Positions 27,601 to 37,089 of a stretch of DNA of 64,000 nucleotides are shown here, piece by piece; position 1 is the first letter of the stretch; each line of letters begins with the position of its first letter. The notes beneath the pieces are model-generated. The model was not told where the DNA came from, ran no database searches, and saw only the letters and a program-made list of their open reading frames with translations. The position numbers were made by a program, and so were the translations under genes. The stretch lies in the NCBI RefSeq assembly GCF_000203815.1, contig NW_004457624.1, forward strand, positions 310,001 to 374,000, read 5' to 3'. The DNA is from Cavenderia fasciculata (lineage: Eukaryota; Evosea; Eumycetozoa; Acytosteliales; Cavenderiaceae).

Positions 27601-28843
27601 TTAAAAATTATTATTTGGTAAAACATTAATAATATTTAAATTATCTACGAGATAGGAGTAATTTTCAGATTGAGGTTTATCACTTGCTTTAACCTTGCCG
27701 ATGATCCAAGCTGGTTGTTTATCGATTTCTTGCATGTCGTCGATAAATGCCTGAGCCTTGTCGGCAGGCAAGGCAACCAACAGACCACCACTCGTCTCTG
27801 CACTCATACCCTTGAGGAGGTTGTAGTTGTAGTTTAGAGTGGCGTCAATCTCTACCATGCCTTGCATGATTGGCAACGTGTCAATTTCAAAGTAGACTGC
27901 TGCGTTTTGGTTCTTGGCCAAATTCATCGAGTGTCCCAACAGACCGAATCCAGTGACATCGGTACATGCGTGTGCACCGTGTTTCATCATCATTCTTGCA
28001 CCGGTTCTGTTGAGACGTGCCATTGAGTTTACAGCATATGCCCAACACTCGATAATCTGCTCACGAGTGACTACACCAGTGATACGCTCCCATTTCTCTG
28101 GGAATCCTTGTAACCATTGATGTGCGTTGGCACACACCTGTGTTCCTAGTGGTTTGGTCAACACCAATACATCACCAGCAACAGCTCCAACTGGCATGAT
28201 AAACTCGTCCTTTTTAACCACAGATGTTGCTACACCTCCAATAATAGGCCATGGATTCTTTACAGTTTGTCCACCCGTTATATTTGTTCCTGCAATCTTT
28301 GCATTATCTAAAGAATAAAAGAAATAAAACAAATTAATAAACAATAAGAAGAATCATTAACGTTGATGTAGATATATACCATTAAAACCATTGATCATTC
28401 CTCTAGTACTCCAAGTTCTTTGTTCTGGGGTCATATCGGTAGAACCTGCCAAGATCATCAACATATTGTCACAATCTGCAATACCAAAGGAATAGAGATC
28501 TGATAGTACGTTTGCACATGCTATCTTACCCATAAGATAAGGATCATCACAATTTGGGAAAAAGAACTAAAATGAATTGAAGTTGAATTGAAATGAATGA
28601 ATGAATGTTAATGTTTGAATTGTTTTAAATGTATATGTATATATGTATGTTACATACATCAGTAGTAGAAACCATAACTATATCATTAAACTTTGTAGGC
28701 ACAACAGAACAATCAAAACCAATACCTGAACCAATACCCTCAAGAAGGGAGAGCAGCTCCTTCTGAGGGATCTTACAACCTCACCCTTTTAATTTTGTAA
28801 AGTCTGTTAACTTGCAAAGTAACTCTTCTTGTTTACTTCCCAT
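27601..28843 (-). CDS. selD: Selenophosphate synthetase, a selenoprotein with in-frame UGA (SPS2/SelD)
   Basis: Three exons (28843-28658, 28566-28380, 27307 side 28307-27601) give 359 residues if UGA at codon 21 is read as selenocysteine. The site reads LKG-U-GCKIP, the catalytic position of SelD, which is Cys or Sec in the family. Further family blocks are [61 protein letters not shown] and SAETSGGLL. The enzyme makes selenophosphate from selenide and ATP for Sec-tRNA synthesis. Without recoding the start codon would give only a 20-residue peptide, so the upstream exon is easily missed by gene callers. The gene lies alone, and its 5' end has been copied to 29752-29895 as a dead fragment. Confidence 0.94.
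28781..28783 (-). other. Selenocysteine (UGA) codon of selD
   Basis: The TGA lies in frame between AAA GGG and GGT TGT, at the exact active-site position of SelD. The reading frame continues through two introns into a full SelD protein. A SECIS-like hairpin lies in the 3' region. Confidence 0.92.
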
Positions 28844-29023
28844 TCTTTCTCTTTCTATCTTTAATACAAATAACTAAAAGCGACGGTGTATCTGAACAAT
28901 GAATGATGAATCTTATGTTATCGGTTTGAGGGTCCGCATCAAAAAAAATTCGATTATTTTTTTTTGATTGAGATGAACTTGAACTTCAAGAACAAAGGAA
29001 AGTACGAACGTTTATTATTTTAT

Positions 29024-29494
29024 TTATTCATATACATCTTCTTCTTGTTCTTTGTTTTTAAATTCTCCAAAGAACGACATTACTGGTTCGCCAGTCTTTG
29101 GGTCTCTGTTGAAATTGAAACCTTTGATTCTCGAAAGTGCATTCTTTTTGGCTCGAGCCACCAAATTCATGGCTCTATTGATTTCAAGATTGATCTCTTT
29201 ATAACGTTGTAACAACATGTAGTCATAGCCATCGGAAAGATAGACGGTTCCTTTAGAGACTGGCTTTAAATGATTGGGGTGGTACTTTTTGGTTCCAGAG
29301 TGACCACAGACTAGGAGCTTGACAGTGGCAACCTTGTGTTCTAGATGTTGATGATTGTATTTGGGTTTATACTTTGCAAGTCTAAGTGTTTGATTCTCTC
29401 TCCAGTATCTGTAATCTTCTAATGATACACCATAAAGAAGGTTGGATAATGGTTGTAAAATATCTTCTTCATGATCGAATTCATAGGTTGTCAT
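29024..29494 (-). CDS. Unknown dictyostelid small protein, local family member 1
   Basis: A single exon of 156 residues with no family I recognise. It shares a colinear pattern with the products at 30594-31148 and 34961-35500: an acidic start ending in GVSLEDYRYWRE (GVPTEDYQYWVD in the others), KPKYNHQHLEHK, KKYHPNHLKPV, a central INRAM block and a C-terminal block with SFFGEF (EFVFFGEG in the others). No signal peptide or membrane segment is seen, so it should be cytosolic or nuclear. The start ATG lies only 4 bases after a run of 13 C on the coding strand. The shared promoter box lies about 140-180 bases upstream. Confidence 0.75.
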   Translation of the reverse strand: MTTYEFDHEEDILQPLSNLLYGVSLEDYRYWRENQTLRLAKYKPKYNHQHLEHKVATVKLLVCGHSGTKKYHPNHLKPVSKGTVYLSDGYDYMLLQRYKEINLEINRAMNLVARAKKNALSRIKGFNFNRDPKTGEPVMSFFGEFKNKEQEEDVYE

Positions 29495-29627
29495 GACAGG
29501 GGGGGGGGGGGTTATTATTTATATGTATATGTATAAGAGGAAGAAGAAGTATTTGTTGTGTAAAAAGATGATGATAATAATGAATTAGGGTGACCAACAA
29601 ACTAGAGTTTTATAGCTATGCTTTCCC

Positions 29628-29675
29628 CTGTCAGTCGGATCATCAACAACCCCACAACGCTACGGTCAGTCATCC
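29628..29675 (-). promoter_or_regulatory. Shared promoter box, copy 1
   Basis: On the plus strand it reads TGTCAGTCGGATCA, then CAACAACCCC, then TACGGTCAGTCATCC. The same arrangement lies upstream of three other members of the local gene family. It has two related GTCAGTC units about 35 bases apart. It sits about 135-180 bases before the start codon at 29494. Confidence 0.7.
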
Positions 29676-29751
29676 AAAAAAATCTCAACTATGAGTTTGC
29701 TGTTTGTTGTGAGCATGTATCTCTTTCTCTCTATCTCTATACCCTCCTTCT

Positions 29752-29895
29752 CAGGGATCTTACAACTTGCAAAGTAACTCTTCTTGTATACTTCACATTC
29801 TCTCTCTATCTCTATCTATCTGTATCTTATATAACTACAGCGAGTATTTGAACAATGATTGACTATGGTCCTATGTTTGTATTTGGACACCAAAA
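29752..29895 (-). pseudogene. Dead fragment of the selD 5' end and promoter
   Basis: Bases 29752-29895 match the start of selD and its upstream DNA (28765-28955): GGGATCTTACAAC, CTTGCAAAGTAACTCTTCTTG and the following TC-rich leader are shared. About 31 bases that include the selenocysteine codon are deleted, and the ATG is now followed at once by TGA. It therefore cannot encode SelD. With the family pseudogene at 30241 it suggests tandem duplication of a block running from selD exon 1 through the neighbouring small gene. Confidence 0.8.
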
Positions 29896-30240
29896 AAAAA
29901 TTCAAAACAATTTTTTAGAATAGAATCTTTTGATTGATCTTCACAATTGAAAATAAATGATTGTCAATGTCGTTGTTTGAATATTATGTATTACCTTTGT
30001 CTTGTAAATCAAGTACCTTAACTTTTCTTATCTCTATTTCTCTCTTTCTCTCTCTTTTTTTTGAACAAAATCTGAAGAATGAAAAAGTGAACATCAAATG
30101 TGTGATTTTTTGTTTTATGATATTTATTTATTTAATTAAAATAAATATAAATAATCCATATTTACAATTAATGGATACTATGTTTGTATTGGTTGGTCCA
30201 TCACCATCATAAGAAATATATAAAATAATAATAAAAGTAA

Positions 30241-30495
30241 TTAATAATCAATATGATTTAATTCGCTATTTTCACTCCAGCAAAGAAAACAAATTTTGTT
30301 ATCTTTCCAGAACCAAAGATATCTTTGGTGAAAGAGTAACCATTGATACTCTTCCAATTTCTCTTCTGACATTCTTGAGATTTTGTTCGACTTGGTTGAT
30401 TGCATGTTGATACGTTGAAATCTATCACCTTTGATGTCATAGTTGATAAAGATGCAGTCATCAACTGGTGGTTTGTCTTGACTGACTATTATACT
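30241..30495 (-). pseudogene. 3' remnant of a local family member
   Basis: The coding-strand pieces INYDIKGDRFQRIN and, in another frame, SGKITKFVFFAG match VINGGRFQSIN and KGKITEFVFFGEG in the intact members at 30594-31148 and 34961-35500. A frameshift separates the two and the first half of the gene is absent. It lies just upstream of the selD fragment, in the same relative order as the intact family gene beside selD. Confidence 0.8.
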
Positions 30496-30593
30496 TTTAT
30501 ATTTGTTAGAAATTGAACAAGTAAAATGCAGAGACACGAATACAGGTCGACGCAAAGACAGAGAGATATTATTTTTTTTTTTAGTATACACAA

Positions 30594-31148
30594 TTATTTT
30601 TTATTTTTCCAAGTGCTTGTATTTCTCATTCTAAGGCTTTTAGGACGTGTACCTTCACCAAAGAATACAAATTCTGTTATCTTTCCTTTTTGGTCTCTTG
30701 TCACTTGGATTCCTTTTACTTCTTCTCCCATTTGTTCTGTGACATCATGCAAAGTATCAGTGGCTCTTAACATTGCCTTGTTGATCGATTGGAATCGACC
30801 ACCATTGATGATTGTATCGATATGAGGAGCTTTTGGTGGGTCGGCTTTTTTGAAATGGTTCTGATGGTACTGTTTGGGAGAGTCACCAGTCAAATGGGAG
30901 ACCAATAATTTGGTCTTGGCAGCTTGGTGTTCTAAAAGTTGATGGTTGAACTTGGGTTTGGTCTTGTTCAATACTAGTGGGGCTCTTGGTCCCATAGCGA
31001 TTTGTGTAGCGTCTACCCAGTATTGGTAATCTTCAGTTGGTACTCCTGTAAAATAGGCATAGGCTTCAACAACATGTTCGTCACGTTCATAGTGGTATGT
31101 AGTGGTAGTAGTGGTGGCAGCAGCGGCGTTGGCTTTGGTGGTAGACAT
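30594..31148 (-). CDS. Unknown dictyostelid small protein, local family member 2
   Basis: A single exon of 184 residues, near-identical to the 179-residue product at 34961-35500 except for a Thr/Ala-rich N-terminus and a divergent region around residues 135-150. Pattern: HYERDEHVVEAYAYFTGVPTEDYQYW, KPKFNHQLLEHQAAKTKLL, SPKQYHQNHF, INGGRFQSINKAML, KGKITEFVFFGEG, then a basic end RPKSLRMRNTSTWKNKK. No known domain. The flanks 30525-30600 and 31260-31380 are also shared with the other copy, so the duplication covered the whole gene and its promoter. Confidence 0.78.
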   Translation of the reverse strand: MSTTKANAAAATTTTTTYHYERDEHVVEAYAYFTGVPTEDYQYWVDATQIAMGPRAPLVLNKTKPKFNHQLLEHQAAKTKLLVSHLTGDSPKQYHQNHFKKADPPKAPHIDTIINGGRFQSINKAMLRATDTLHDVTEQMGEEVKGIQVTRDQKGKITEFVFFGEGTRPKSLRMRNTSTWKNKK

Positions 31149-31302
31149 GGTTATTAATTGTATAAAATATATTTAATGTTGTTATATAAATATAAATAAT
31201 ATTATTATTTAAAAGAAGAAGAAGTATTTGTTGTTGTTGTTGTTGATAATAATGAATGAGAGTGACCAACAACAAACTAGTGTTTTAAAGCTACGCTTTC
31301 CC

Positions 31303-31350
31303 TGTCAGTCGGATCACCAACAACCCCGCAACGTTACGGTCAGTCATCCA
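31303..31350 (-). promoter_or_regulatory. Shared promoter box, copy 2
   Basis: The plus strand reads CTGTCAGTCGGATCACCAAC and then CGTTACGGTCAGTCATCC, as in copy 1, about 155-200 bases before the start codon at 31148. The flanking words (AAAGCTACGCTTTCCC before it, AAAAAATCTCAACTTGC after it) are shared too. Confidence 0.7.
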
Positions 31351-31525
31351 TCAAAAAAATCTCAACTTGCTTGAGTTTGCTGAATATATATTATTATTTA
31401 TTTTTTATATATATATATAGAAATAAATATATATAGATACTTACTTTAATAAATAAATAATTAGTTGAGGTATAAATAATAATAAAAAGATCTTTTAGAT
31501 TAGTTTGTAGTAGTGAATAATTAAA

Positions 31526-32020
31526 ATGAATTGCAGTTTTAAAGGTACTTGTACAGATACAGTCAAGTCAGTCTGAATCTAATCTCCTATCGCTATGTAA
31601 TTGATCATTGTTTTAATTTATAGTTTTTATACAAGAAGTAAATGTCGAAGACAAGAAGTAAATGTAGCAGATGCAATGGAATTATCATGTTGCAATCAAA
31701 GAAATGAAATCTTTTTGTTCTTGGTCGATATTTTCATCACTGAAGAAAAAGAGGACGATATAGGAAGATTGAAAGCAGCACGCAATATTGAATCGGCAAT
31801 CACTATATCATCAATTTGTGGTCACATTGAATATGTCAAGTATCTTGTATCAACATTCAACATTACTACTCTTGGAAAGTGGTGTACACATAAAAATTTG
31901 ATTTCGGAGATTGCATCCTTCTCTTTCCCAATTCAATTCGCATCGTATTATTATAAATATTATTTGTATTATACTTACTTATACTTACTTATCTGTATTT
32001 TATTTTATCTAATTTAAAGA
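31526..32020 (+). pseudogene. Ankyrin-repeat-like fragment
   Basis: The frame over about 31619-31900 encodes two ankyrin-like units (AMELSCCNQRNEIFLFLVDIF and SAITISSICGHIEYVKYLVS) of the kind common in dictyostelids. A possible first exon (ATG 31526, donor after about 31543) joins out of frame to it, and the 3' end runs into low-complexity Tyr/Leu. It looks like a short remnant. An intact small gene with unusual splicing cannot be excluded. Confidence 0.45.
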
Positions 32021-32098
32021 AGGAGAAGAAGATGATCGCGATAAAGAATCCAAATCAATTATATGTTGAATTATCTTTCAGTTGCAAACAAAGACATC

Positions 32099-33845
32099 AT
32101 GTCAAAGTCTGGTAAGCTAGTACGTTGATCATGTGTACATGATCATTCATGATCAGTCGACTGATTATTGTGTATCTATCTATAGATCCACAAGTATTGG
32201 TATATCAATCGACCCATGGAGAACCAGACAATTTCCAATTAGTTGGAGCTTCTGAAAAGATAAAGAATAACCTAAACCCAACCTTTAAGACCCCTGTCAA
32301 GGTTGACTACTACTTTGAAGCTTTGCAACCATTACAATTTGTCGTTGTCAATGTCGATGGTCCAACCAAGACATCCTACAAAGATCTAGCCAAACACGAT
32401 ATCATTGGTAGCTGTATCATCACACTCAGTGAAATCGTATCAGTACCAGGTCGAAGAGTAGAAAGAAACTTAAATACACCAGCCGGTAGCTTCAGTGGAA
32501 TGATTGACATCAAAGCTGAATTCTTCCAAAGAACTGGTCAAAAGGTTCTTTTCCAAATTGCTTGTAGACATGTAAATAGTCAAAAGAGAAAGGATGAATG
32601 AATGGAATGATTAACTCTTTATTTATTTAAATTTAGTTGGACAAGAAAGATTTATTTGGAAAGAGTGATCCATACTTTAAGATATTTAGAAAGAATGAAG
32701 ATGATGTAACATGGACAGAGTTTTATCAATCCAAGGTAATCATGAATGAATTGAATCCGATATTCGAAGCAAACAAGTTTCCAATAGATGTTGTATGTGG
32801 AGGTAATCTAGATCGACCAATCAAATTTGAATTCTTTGATTGGGATAAACGATCAGCTCATGATTTAATTGGTATTTTCGAGACTACTTTAAGACAATTA
32901 CAAGAGAGTGATATTAGAACTATGGAAATACCAATTGTCAATGTAAAAAAAGATTGTAAATCGGGATACAAGAATAGTGGTATTTGTTACTTTAAGAGTT
33001 TCTATATCAAGGCTGCCTACCCCTACTCCATATTAGATTTCATTGCTGGTGGTACAGAGATTGGTTTGATGGTTGCTATTGATTGCACAGTCTCTAATGG
33101 ACCACTACATAATATTGGTGAGACCTTGAATCAATATGAACAGTCTATATTGGGTATTGGACGTGTTTTGGAGCCTTATGACACTGATCGTATGATTCCA
33201 GTCTATGGGTATGGTGGTAGTATCAACGGTGTCACCTCACATTGTTTCCCATTCGATGTGATTGGTGGTAGAGAGGAGGCTGCTGGTATCTACGACGTCC
33301 AAAGAATTTATCGCCAAAATATGTCAGCTATCGGTCTGTCTTCACCAACCAATATGGAACAAATCCTTAAAAAGGCAGTTACTGCTGCTGAAGCAGGTAA
33401 AATATCACCTACTCCAAAATACACCATTCTTTTGATTATCACCGACGGTGATATTTGTGACTTGACCCAAACTAAAATTCAAATTGTAAAAGGTTCCAAA
33501 TTACCATTATCCATTGTCATGTATGTAAAACAAATCAAAAAATAATCAATCAAACAATAATTATTTATTTATTTAATTTAATTTAGTGTCGGTGTTGGTA
33601 GTTCTGCATTCTTTTCAATGAATGAGCTTGATGGTGACATGAATTCATTAAAGGGAGCGGTCAGAGACATTGTCCAATTTGTGCCATTTGCTGAAGTCTG
33701 CAAGAATGGAGATATTGCCAAGGAAACATTAAAGGAGATTCCAAAGCAATTCATTCGTTACTTTAAGAAAAATCACATCACTCCACCCCCACCAAGACCT
33801 TACATTGCTCCACCCTATACGCAACCCATTCTATACCCACAATAA
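32099..33845 (+). CDS. Copine (two C2 domains plus von Willebrand A-like domain)
   Basis: Four exons (32099-32111, 32186-32571, 32637-33520, 33587-33845) sum to 513 residues in frame. The first coding exon encodes only MSKSG. The C2A domain covers about 10-130 and the C2B domain about 133-250 (DKKDLFGKSDPYFKIF, NPIFEANKF, FDWDKRSAHDLIG). The A domain starts at IGLMVAIDCTVSNGP, a MIDAS-type motif with Thr for Ser, and contains YGYGG, CFPF and SIVIVGVGSS. The Pro-rich end is typical. Copines bind membrane phospholipids on calcium rise; in D. discoideum they act in cytokinesis, contractile vacuole function and development. Which of the cpn genes this matches cannot be told here. Confidence 0.95.
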
Positions 33846-33931
33846 CATTATATACATATATAAATAAACAAATCATCATTTTATTTTATCTATCTATTAT
33901 TTTTTTAATTAATTATTACTTATACATTTAT

Positions 33932-34441
33932 TTATTTTTTATTTTTATACATTTTTTCTGGTTTAGATATTTGATTATTCTTTCCAATGAAATAGAATTC
34001 AATAGTGTCTCTAGCTTTGGAGATGGATAATCCTTTTAATGGACCAATTTCTCTTCTTACACTGACAAACATTGTTTGAGATTTAGCCATCAAATCGTTG
34101 ATATCTTGAAACCGGCAACCCAATATGAAATCCTTTCGGTCTGGAACAATAAAGATATCTTGTACTCTTTTGAAATGGTATGGATAGTACTGATGTTTTT
34201 GGTTTAAACTATCATTTGTGTGGGTCAAGTGACAAAAGACCTTTTGATCTTGGCATTGTGATGTTCAAGTTGTTGATGACCGAATTATGGTTTGTTCTTG
34301 TTCATTAAAAAGAGCGTATGTTTCTCTCCAGTATCGGTAATCCTCTAATGGTACACCTGAAAAGACGATGGCAAGTGTTTCTATAATATCCTCTTCGCAT
34401 TCGTATTCAAATGTGTGTGAGAATGATTCTGTGTTTAACAT
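33932..34441 (-). pseudogene. Broken local family member
   Basis: An ATG at 34441 opens a family-like start (FEYECEEDIIETLAIVFSG, then LEDYRYWRE). The frame then shifts, a TAA interrupts NKP-stop-FGHQQLEHHNAK (compare NKTKPKFNHQLLEHQAAK in the intact copies), and a second shift precedes YYPYHFKR, CRFQDINDLM and the FYFIGKN end. One stop and two shifts make it a pseudogene. A weaker promoter box remains upstream at about 34553-34575. Confidence 0.85.
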
Positions 34442-34552
34442 TTATGTATATATATATATATAAATAAAATGGTATAGATGTATGTAAGAAAGAAGTGACA
34501 ATGATCATTTAGGTAACCAACATAACTAGTAGGGTCTCCCTCATCAAGGCCA

Positions 34553-34576
34553 CCACAACGTTACGGTCAGTCACCA
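34553..34576 (-). promoter_or_regulatory. Shared promoter box, copy 3 (degenerate)
   Basis: The plus strand keeps CACAACGTTACGGTCAGTCA but has lost the left GTCAGTCGGATCA unit, replaced by a diverged CTCCCTCATCAAGG. It lies upstream of the broken family member, about 115 bases from its old start codon. Confidence 0.6.
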
Positions 34577-34960
34577 TCAAAAAAAGTAAATATAAACCCT
34601 CGAAGCTACCCGAGTTTGTTGTTTGAGTTGAGGTTGTTTTGATCCTACTTATATATATATATATGTATATGATATATTTATAGTTGTACTTTTTATACCT
34701 ATCTATCTATCTATCATGATCTTCTAGTATACTAGTTTGCTATTATTAATTAAGAAGAAAGCATAATTATCCAACATTTGTCGTAAGTATACTAGTTTGT
34801 TGTCCTGATATATCTTGTAAAAGTAATCAAGTACTTAAACTTATCTCTATCTCTCTCACTATGTTCAAAATAAAACAAGTAAAATGCAGAGACACGAATA
34901 CTTTTAAATATTTACGTAGCAAAGACAGAGAGATATTATTTTTTTTTTTAGTATATACAA

Positions 34961-35500
34961 TTATTTTTTATTTTTCCAAGTGCTTGTATTTCTCATTCTA
35001 AGGCTTTTAGGACGTGTACCTTCACCAAAGAATACAAATTCTGTTATCTTTCCTTTTTGGTCTCTTGTTACTTGGATTGCTTTTACTTCTTCTCCCGTTT
35101 GGCGTTTGACTTGGGCCAAGGTTTGAACGGCTCTTAACATTGCACTGTTGATCGATTGGAATCGACCACCATTGATGACTGCATCGATATGAGGAGCTTT
35201 TGGACCATCGGCTTTTCTGAAATGGTTCTGATGGTATTGTTTGGGAGAGTCACCAGTCAAACGGGCAAGTAACAGCTTGGTCTTGGCAGCTTGGTGTTCT
35301 AAAAGTTGATGGTTGAACTTGGGTTTGGTCTTGTCCAGTACGAGTGGGGCTTTTCCTGGACCCAAGGCGATTTGTGTAGCGTCTACCCAGTATTGGTAAT
35401 CTTCAGTTGGTACCCCTGTAAAATAGGCATAGGCTTCAACAACATGTTCGTCACGTTCGTAGTGGTATGTAGTAGTCGTAGTGGTAGTAGTGGAAGACAT
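34961..35500 (-). CDS. Unknown dictyostelid small protein, local family member 3
   Basis: A single exon of 179 residues. It is the close sister of the product at 30594-31148: identical over most of the GVPTEDYQYW, KPKFNHQLLEHQAAKTKLL, PKQYHQNHF, GGRFQSIN and KGKITEFVFFGEG blocks and in the last 17 residues. Differences cluster around residues 133-147 and at the Thr-rich start. The 3' flank (AT-rich, with the shared ACAGAGAGATATTA word) and the promoter box are also copied. No known domain, signal peptide or membrane helix. Confidence 0.78.
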   Translation of the reverse strand: MSSTTTTTTTTYHYERDEHVVEAYAYFTGVPTEDYQYWVDATQIALGPGKAPLVLDKTKPKFNHQLLEHQAAKTKLLLARLTGDSPKQYHQNHFRKADGPKAPHIDAVINGGRFQSINSAMLRAVQTLAQVKRQTGEEVKAIQVTRDQKGKITEFVFFGEGTRPKSLRMRNTSTWKNKK

Positions 35501-35619
35501 GATGGTTATTTAAAATAGTAATTTTATAAATATTAAGTATTATTTGTTGTTGTTGTTGTTGGATGATGATAATAATGAATTAGGTGACCAAGAAACTATG
35601 GTTTTATAGCTTGTTATCC

Positions 35620-35670
35620 CTGTCAGTCGGATCACACAACACCCCCAAAACGTTACGGTCAGTCATCCAT
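35620..35670 (-). promoter_or_regulatory. Shared promoter box, copy 4
   Basis: The plus strand reads CTGTCAGTCGGATCACACAA and CGTTACGGTCAGTCATCC, the same spacing as copies 1 and 2, about 120-170 bases before the start codon at 35500. Confidence 0.7.
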
Positions 35671-36039
35671 CCAAAAATCTCAGCCTCAGCAAAGGCCAAA
35701 GCTGAGTTTGTTTGATCGTCACTCTATCTCTTCTATACTGTTCAATCTGATGGATGTTCTAGTTTTAACTTTTGATATTTGATAGAATATATAATGCATT
35801 ATGATAAATATATATATATATATCTGTACTGTCTTTTATCTGTTGAGTATTGTTTTAATCTAAAAAAGGGTGAACATCAAAGTAGCTCTAGAATCTAGAG
35901 CTTACGTCGAAGGGATATTTAATTTTTATTTTTTAGTTTGAGTTTGCTGTTAGATCATCAAACTTTGATGTACAAATAATCAAAAGTGAGAATATAGTAA
36001 AATGGTTGGTTGGTTGATAGATAGACAGGTCTATTTTAT

Positions 36040-36423
36040 TCACATAAATACGATTCTTTTGGGAGGTCTATCACCTATTATGGCTCTACCCGACTCTGTA
36101 TCAAACAATGATTGAATTGCTTTCAAACTGGCTCTTGATTCCTCGATGTATTGGGGAGTGTCGTGTTTGATGTGATCTAGTACCAGCTTTACTTTGGGAA
36201 GGGGAATCTCTTTTTTGTTGAATTCATTGGTCACTGATGGGTATGGGTCGATGTTTGAATACTTGACTTTGAGATGCTCTGGATCGATTTGATTAGCTAC
36301 ATAGAATCTTTTGATATTAGAGATCTTTCTCTCAATAATAAAGTGATTTAATGTTGGCATTGGGTTCTTGGTGTCATAAATATTATTTGACATTGACATT
36401 GTTGGATGTTGTTGATTGTACAA
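36040..36423 (-). CDS. Unknown small protein, possibly a distant member of the local family
   Basis: A single exon of 127 residues. It shares only weak, colinear features with the neighbours: KVKLVLDHIKHDTPQYIEE resembles KTKLLVSHLTGDSPKQYHQ, followed by a helical SRASLKAIQSLF where the others have SINSAMLRAVQTL. It ends with a basic PPKRIVFM. A single inverted piece of the promoter box (ACCGTAACGTT near 36610) lies upstream. No known domain. It could be an independent gene. Confidence 0.6.
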   Translation of the reverse strand: MYNQQHPTMSMSNNIYDTKNPMPTLNHFIIERKISNIKRFYVANQIDPEHLKVKYSNIDPYPSVTNEFNKKEIPLPKVKLVLDHIKHDTPQYIEESRASLKAIQSLFDTESGRAIIGDRPPKRIVFM

Positions 36424-36608: not shown

Positions 36609-36625
36609 TAACCGTAACGTTTTGG
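36609..36625 (+). promoter_or_regulatory. Inverted partial promoter-box motif
   Basis: ACCGTAACGTTTTGGG is the reverse complement of the CGTTACGGT core of the four family promoter boxes, about 190 bases upstream of the start codon at 36423. A related GTGACGGTTAG lies at about 36453-36464. Confidence 0.4.
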
Positions 36626-37089
36626 GTCGAACTTCAAAGTGACACAACAACAAATATCAACCAGTTTTTGCACTCTACTTTTGTGTTGTATAGTGATGTA
36701 CTTTTCAAAGATTTATATGATGAGAGAGCCTAATTCATGTTCTCGAAAACATTCTTCTAAAATCAATATCTCTCTCTTTCTTTATGATTATGTATGTAAT
36801 ATAAAGTAATCATCATGGGTAGTGTAGTATAAGTATGAATACTAATAAGTATAAAATAAAATATGCAAAGTAAATCAAAGTTTGATCGGTTGGGCTTGGT
36901 GGAATGGTTTGCTCGGTTTTTTTTTTTTAATTTTTTTGAATTTTTTTTTTCTTTTTGTCGTTTTTTGCAACAATAATTATTCTGAGGAGTCGTTTACCCA
37001 CACTCGCGTAGCGTATCGATAAAGTAGTATCTATCTATCTATCAATTTACTTTTTTATAAATATATATATATAATCACAAACAGTAAAA

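Follow-up and report, generated by a model that had tools for sequence, protein, structure and literature searches.

Small open reading frames (ORFs) lie close together on the minus strand of a 64,000-nucleotide (nt) stretch of the Cavenderia fasciculata genome, raising the question of whether they form a family of their own and, if so, whether they are maintained as a jointly regulated set or are drifting towards loss. The stretch, hereafter the window, corresponds to C21:310001-374000 in a 31.0 Mb genome of 21 contigs, and window coordinates are used throughout. At the core of the array are three intact minus-strand ORFs, found at the places originally given, m1 (29024..29494), m2 (30594..31148) and m3 (34961..35500), with 156, 184 and 179 codons (amino acids, aa), respectively. 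All three were recognised from the ORF list and the genome search. We consider, with a probability of about 0.6, that they belong to a lineage-specific family which expands by local duplication, is regulated jointly and encodes small, mostly basic proteins. This genome carries the family in several copies, and the array carries a 5' element that is nearly exclusive to it.

Family members and their proteins

The relatedness of the array genes stood up to the genome searches, but the array is not the whole family, as two further loci, C1 and C18, lie on the contigs of those names. With m3 as query (expect value, E, up to 1), seven places were recovered, namely the three members, a frameshifted copy, C1, C18 and a scrap on C18, and the other members were matched at E 5.6e-103 and 2.4e-14, far beyond chance. 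When m1 was the query, six of eight places were family, the other two rows having E 0.3-0.6; when the C1 copy was used, 24 places included five family loci, and the remaining 19 (E 1e-4 to 0.8), all overlapping the asparagine-rich tail of C1, were excluded from membership. Copy counts from these searches are lower bounds. A lineage-specific family is characterised by two or more paralogs per genome, and here there are the three intact array genes, C1 and C18.

The C1 locus is a 234-codon ORF and the C18 locus a 177-codon ORF counted from its first in-frame ATG. In the latter, the family sequence IFQINPEVDFLG stands in frame ahead of this ATG, and no ATG follows the in-frame TAG further upstream; therefore, the C18 copy would either be without its own start or need an upstream exon. 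The two stops in the C18 match are the stop of the ORF itself and the next codon. Of a second family member, C18 retains a scrap of 22 residues (L008:4871-4936, CPLVLDKTKPKFNHQVLEHQVA), which is 86% identical to m3 and nearer to it than the adjoining C18 gene is.

Alignment of the five proteins (m1, m2, m3, C1 and C18, the last without its N-terminus) revealed 16 invariant columns, including, in m3 numbering, W38, N63, H64, Q65, L67, E68, H69, K75, L76, L77, Y89 and H90. Among the three window members, identity ranged from 155/178 aligned residues between m2 and m3 to 36-39% in the comparisons of m1 (55/142 with m2, 53/146 with m3). The motifs proposed as conserved were shared unevenly: NHQxLEH occurs in all five proteins; EDYxYW is kept in the three window members, but reads EDLRAW in C1 and DEYRLW in C18; GGRFQSIN and VFFGE are confined to the near-twins m2 and m3 and are lacking in the other three.

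The claim that the family has no known domain held in every sequence search carried out. Pfam gave at best 14.3 bits against a cut-off of 24.6 (three intact members, the 119-aa ORF at 36040 discussed below, and portions of the C1 and C18 proteins). With the five aligned members as queries, the best NCBIfam match had E 0.013, with three m3 rows at 11.9-13 bits against cut-offs of 204-562, and the best PHROGs match had E 0.23. PADLOC, searched with the five aligned members and then with four singly and the 36040 ORF, reached E 0.0095 in one of five members. This match, to PtuB (E 0.0095 and 0.016, residues 88-132 and 70-119), was taken as chance, because it was limited to C18, fell outside NHQxLEH and used two different places of the profile. 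Among PDB sequences, one member as query gave at best E 0.29, and the family profile a single non-significant row, a 38-position match to PRL-1 phosphatase (E 0.011). Pattern matches were found in IMG/VR (510) and in GTDB species genomes (151), none of them confirmed as a viral or a prokaryote relative, respectively, and a literature search yielded no title on this gene family.

Profile searches and structure prediction had been suggested for the 179-residue member; the former returned no significant family and the latter a model of low confidence, with a mean predicted local distance difference test score (pLDDT) of 54.8. In this AlphaFold model of m3, block means are 53-71 in the first two helices and 71-75 at the end of the long helix and in the hairpin, and values fall below 50 in residues 54-111, the region of NHQxLEH. 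The predicted order is a strand, three helices, a long helix and a beta hairpin; the m1 model (mean pLDDT 36.6) repeats the same order of helices and hairpin. Neither Foldseek nor VIA found a reliable match to the m3 model; four entries that appear to be of the DUF600 or EsaG type (2ia1, 3i0t, 8guo and 8gup) recur in its Foldseek list. In the five members and the 36040 ORF, no 19-residue stretch is strongly hydrophobic, the highest mean being 1.56 in C1. The isoelectric point is 8.8-9.8 in five of these six proteins (6.7 in C18). The products would thus be small, mostly basic and probably soluble, and an intracellular binding or adaptor role is our best guess, from their charge, the low-confidence fold outline and the conserved W, H and Y residues. 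Both their cellular location and the restriction of the family to this lineage are points that we infer.

The shared 5' block

The conserved promoter proposed for these genes corresponds to a real, promoter-like block, near-exclusive to the array in pattern and block searches of the genome. It lies on the minus strand at 29495..29699 in m1, where it runs from CAAACTC to the base before the ATG, at 31149..31379 in m2, at 35501..35710 in m3 and at 34442..34618 in the frameshifted copy. The four blocks align from CAAACTC towards the start codon, and their similarity ends upstream of CAAACTC. Each intact block has two GACTGAC repeats 35-36 nt apart with the core CCGTARCGTT between them, followed by a TATA-like box (TATAAA 120 nt before the ATG in m1 and 108 nt in m3; TTTAAAA 141 nt before it in m2). 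The element pair, TGACTGACCGTAGCGTT...CCGACTGACA in m1, occupies 29629-29672 in m1, 31303-31346 in m2 and 35621-35665 in m3. In the frameshifted copy, the core (34551-34567, one mismatch) and the first repeat are kept, and the second GACTGAC and the TATA-like box are missing downstream of the core.

The 17-position core ACCGTARCGTTNNGGGG has 15 matches in the genome with up to two mismatches: three exact (m1, m2 and m3), three with one mismatch (the frameshifted copy, an inverted copy at 36611 and C21:730043) and nine with two. Five of the six matches with at most one mismatch are in the array; the sixth, C21:730043, is inside a 1379-aa ORF. Likewise, all four matches to AACGYTACGGTCAGTC (up to one mismatch) and all three to TGACTGACCGTA(10-40)CCGACTGACA fall in the array, as do four of the five to the 11-mer AACGTTACGGT, the fifth being in a 176-aa ORF, and a 131-base query from the m1 block matched m1, m2 and m3 only. 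The element would be a promoter site read by one factor.

A small inverted repeat stands beside CAAACTC in all four blocks (29667-29699, 31341-31379, 34568-34618 and 35660-35710), with arms of 4-6 whose differences from one copy to the next are matched, and it was reached in 0.6% to 10% of shuffles; because the copies are related, any meaning of this repeat is only suggestive. In the m1 block, CCCACAA could be read as a DUSE-like motif, but this reading was dropped, as the other copies do not keep CCCACAA. Furthermore, no RNA gene was found in the 5' block: at gathering scores Rfam matched nothing in the window, at E up to 1 it matched nothing between 26000 and 37000, and a transfer RNA scan with the bacterial code found none.

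The inverted core (36611..36627, plus strand, one mismatch, by pattern search) is about 220 nt 5' of the 119-aa ORF at 36040..36399 (minus strand), which had been put forward as a possible distant member. For this ORF, kinship with the family was not demonstrable in profile and pairwise tests: it scored 3.2 bits against the family profile, a score reached by 5/500 shuffles (465 of these scored), and its pairwise scores against m1, m2, m3, C1 and C18 were reached by 19, 79, 143, 1051 and 4 of 2000 shuffles, with the same register in the m1 and m3 alignments and another part of the ORF aligned to C18. As genome query it retrieved itself and one row at E 0.63, with no relative below E 0.6. The shuffle tests are hints rather than proof, compatible with a possible, very old kinship. 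When its upstream region was aligned locally to each of the other four 5' regions in either orientation, the scores were reached by 0 to 72 of 300 shuffles; these eight alignments are mostly of A+T-rich or simple stretches, and only that to the inverted frameshifted copy (1/300) crosses the core. The inverted core is unlikely to stand there by chance, though it was judged after being seen. We tentatively suggest, as a possibility that we do not favour, that the array might be a private regulon, in which a dedicated factor reads the near-exclusive element and the unrelated 36040 ORF was joined to it by promoter capture of the inverted copy.

Duplication, constraint and decay

The birth-and-death pattern attributed to the array was upheld by the near-twin duplicates m2 and m3, the frameshifted copy with its eroded 5' block, one fragment and the scrap on another contig. 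Regarding the two dead members that had been claimed, the one at 33932..34441 (minus strand) is a broken relative, recovered by the genome search and by the family profile (two stretches at E 1.8e-10 and 5.2e-7, a third piece at E 0.017), and its family motifs shift from frame 0 to frame 1 and back to frame 0. The case is weaker for the broken 3' fragment at about 30241..30485 (minus strand), whose protein scores against the profile are not significant (E 0.58 and 4.8), but which has a 34-nt stretch 88% identical to both neighbours and carries GDRFQRIN and KITKFVFF in two different frames.

The intact 5' blocks are 77-80% identical (m1-m2 161/201, m1-m3 148/187, m2-m3 147/190), and the block of the frameshifted copy is more distant (108/159 to m1, 90/171 to m3). 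Third codon positions are identical at 72/142 between m1 and m2 and at 77/146 between m1 and m3. Since m2 and m3 share 155/178 residues but only 147/190 of the block, all three 5' blocks lie at much the same distance from one another, and the m2 and m3 coding parts are much closer. Moreover, m2-m3 coding identity in 60-column steps is 93-97% at the 5' end, 78-90% in the middle and 98-100% at the 3' end, and the longest identical run (105 of 534) was reached by 3/5000 permutations; this over-long run and the identity gradient suggest partial gene conversion between the two coding parts. We picture a lineage-specific family that would expand by local duplication, with its coding sequence partly homogenised by gene conversion and copies lost by frameshift. 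The array copies would be switched on together by an array-specific cassette, in which two GACTGAC repeats, spaced at about 35 nt, flank a CCGTARCGTT..GGGG core and a TATA-like box follows. Their products, for which a condition-specific role had been suggested, would act in one life-cycle or stress state.

Several observations weigh against this account. The m2-m3 block (147/190) is less alike than the coding part of the same pair (481/534), so that it is the comparisons with m1 that argue for a conserved promoter, and the long identical m2-m3 run could come from constraint instead. In addition, the TATA-like box of m2 is TTTAAAA rather than the TATAAA of m1 and m3, and a second TATAAA occurs near the ATG of m1 (29 nt) and m3 (28 nt). 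For two of the patterns, the backwards control was commoner than the pattern: the 11-mer had 5 matches and its control 64, the core 15 and its control 56. Such words are therefore scarce in this genome anyway; the context of core matches was examined at the places with zero or one mismatch. In the surroundings of C1 and C18 (9.0 and 9.5 kb), no core within three mismatches and neither longer repeat word within one was found, and thus the element does not define the family. Finally, the ratio of nonsynonymous to synonymous substitutions (dN/dS; Nei-Gojobori counts, with Fisher p on rounded counts) is 0.69 for m1-m3 (p 0.10) and 0.78 for C1-C18 (p 0.33), so that relaxed constraint stays compatible with the data; dS is high for distant pairs (0.88 for m1-m3, 1.72 for m3-C1).

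The C1-C18 ratio would also suit a decaying family without present function, whose recent duplicates look constrained but drift to pseudogenes, as would the two broken copies among five in the array and the C18 copy that has no start or needs an upstream exon. However, dN/dS is 0.34 for m2-m3 (p 0.0005), where the counts show purifying selection between the closest pair, and 0.35 for m3-C1 (p 6.5e-7), and the three 5' blocks stayed alike while the proteins diverged, which makes this explanation quite improbable. We hold in equally low regard the idea that the shared block spreads between neighbouring genes as a recombining or mobile cassette instead of being a constrained promoter: the near-equal likeness of the three blocks beside widely different coding parts, the end of their similarity upstream of CAAACTC and the presence in the array of a duplicate of part of the 5' end of the adjacent SelD gene speak for it, but in the genome searches the block and the repeat pair turned up in the array only, and the repeats and TATA-like box are placed as in a promoter. 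Somewhat less improbable, though still unlikely, is that the family branched off from a known domain family and has diverged beyond the reach of sequence profiles, as might be suggested by the element order of the low-confidence m3 model, repeated for helices and hairpin in that of m1, and by the recurrence of the four entries of apparent DUF600 or EsaG type.

Genomic neighbours and significance

A SelD-like gene with an AIRS_C domain match lies at 27601-28843 on the minus strand (extent by eye); its SelD identity and active-site motif are presumptive, and its first-exon sequence suggests that the product is itself a selenoprotein. A 55-nt stretch between m1 and m2 (29764-29818) is 87% identical to the start of this gene (28809-28863) and is a relic of a duplicated SelD-like 5' end. 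A copine gene occupies 31676-33845 on the plus strand (extent by eye), between m2 and the frameshifted copy, where the ORF 32742-33545 matches Copine. Other neighbour proteins in the window match Dicty_spore_N and ComC_SSD, which marks the genome as that of a dictyostelid.

In Dictyostelium discoideum, co-regulated clusters of short similar genes are expressed together, and the genes described here are likewise short, similar and clustered. Among 12165 genes of C. fasciculata, 3358 have been counted as lineage-specific and 1077 as expansion genes (Table 1, PMC8535579). Like the lineage-specific dictyostelid genes of that work, the present family has paralogs here and no detected relative in the domain libraries, IMG/VR or the GTDB species genomes; expansions, as defined there, require over four paralogs, a number that must be at least double that of any other species (PMC8535579), and this genome alone contributes five near-full-length family loci, that on C18 being doubtful. 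In the consulted passages of PMC8535579, a shared private promoter element is not discussed, nor was the present family recognised.

In brief, the orphan family is real, is turning over and shares a 5' element. Its kind is well known in dictyostelids as far as the consulted parts of PMC8535579 describe them, and it stands out by its near-exclusive element and by the inverted copy of this element ahead of an ORF whose kinship is not demonstrable. Otherwise it is one among several thousand lineage-specific dictyostelid genes; with 5' blocks that remain alike while the proteins diverge, a broken copy whose block has eroded and the 36040 ORF with the same core, it offers a compact setting in which to study how regulation is acquired and retained in a young gene family.
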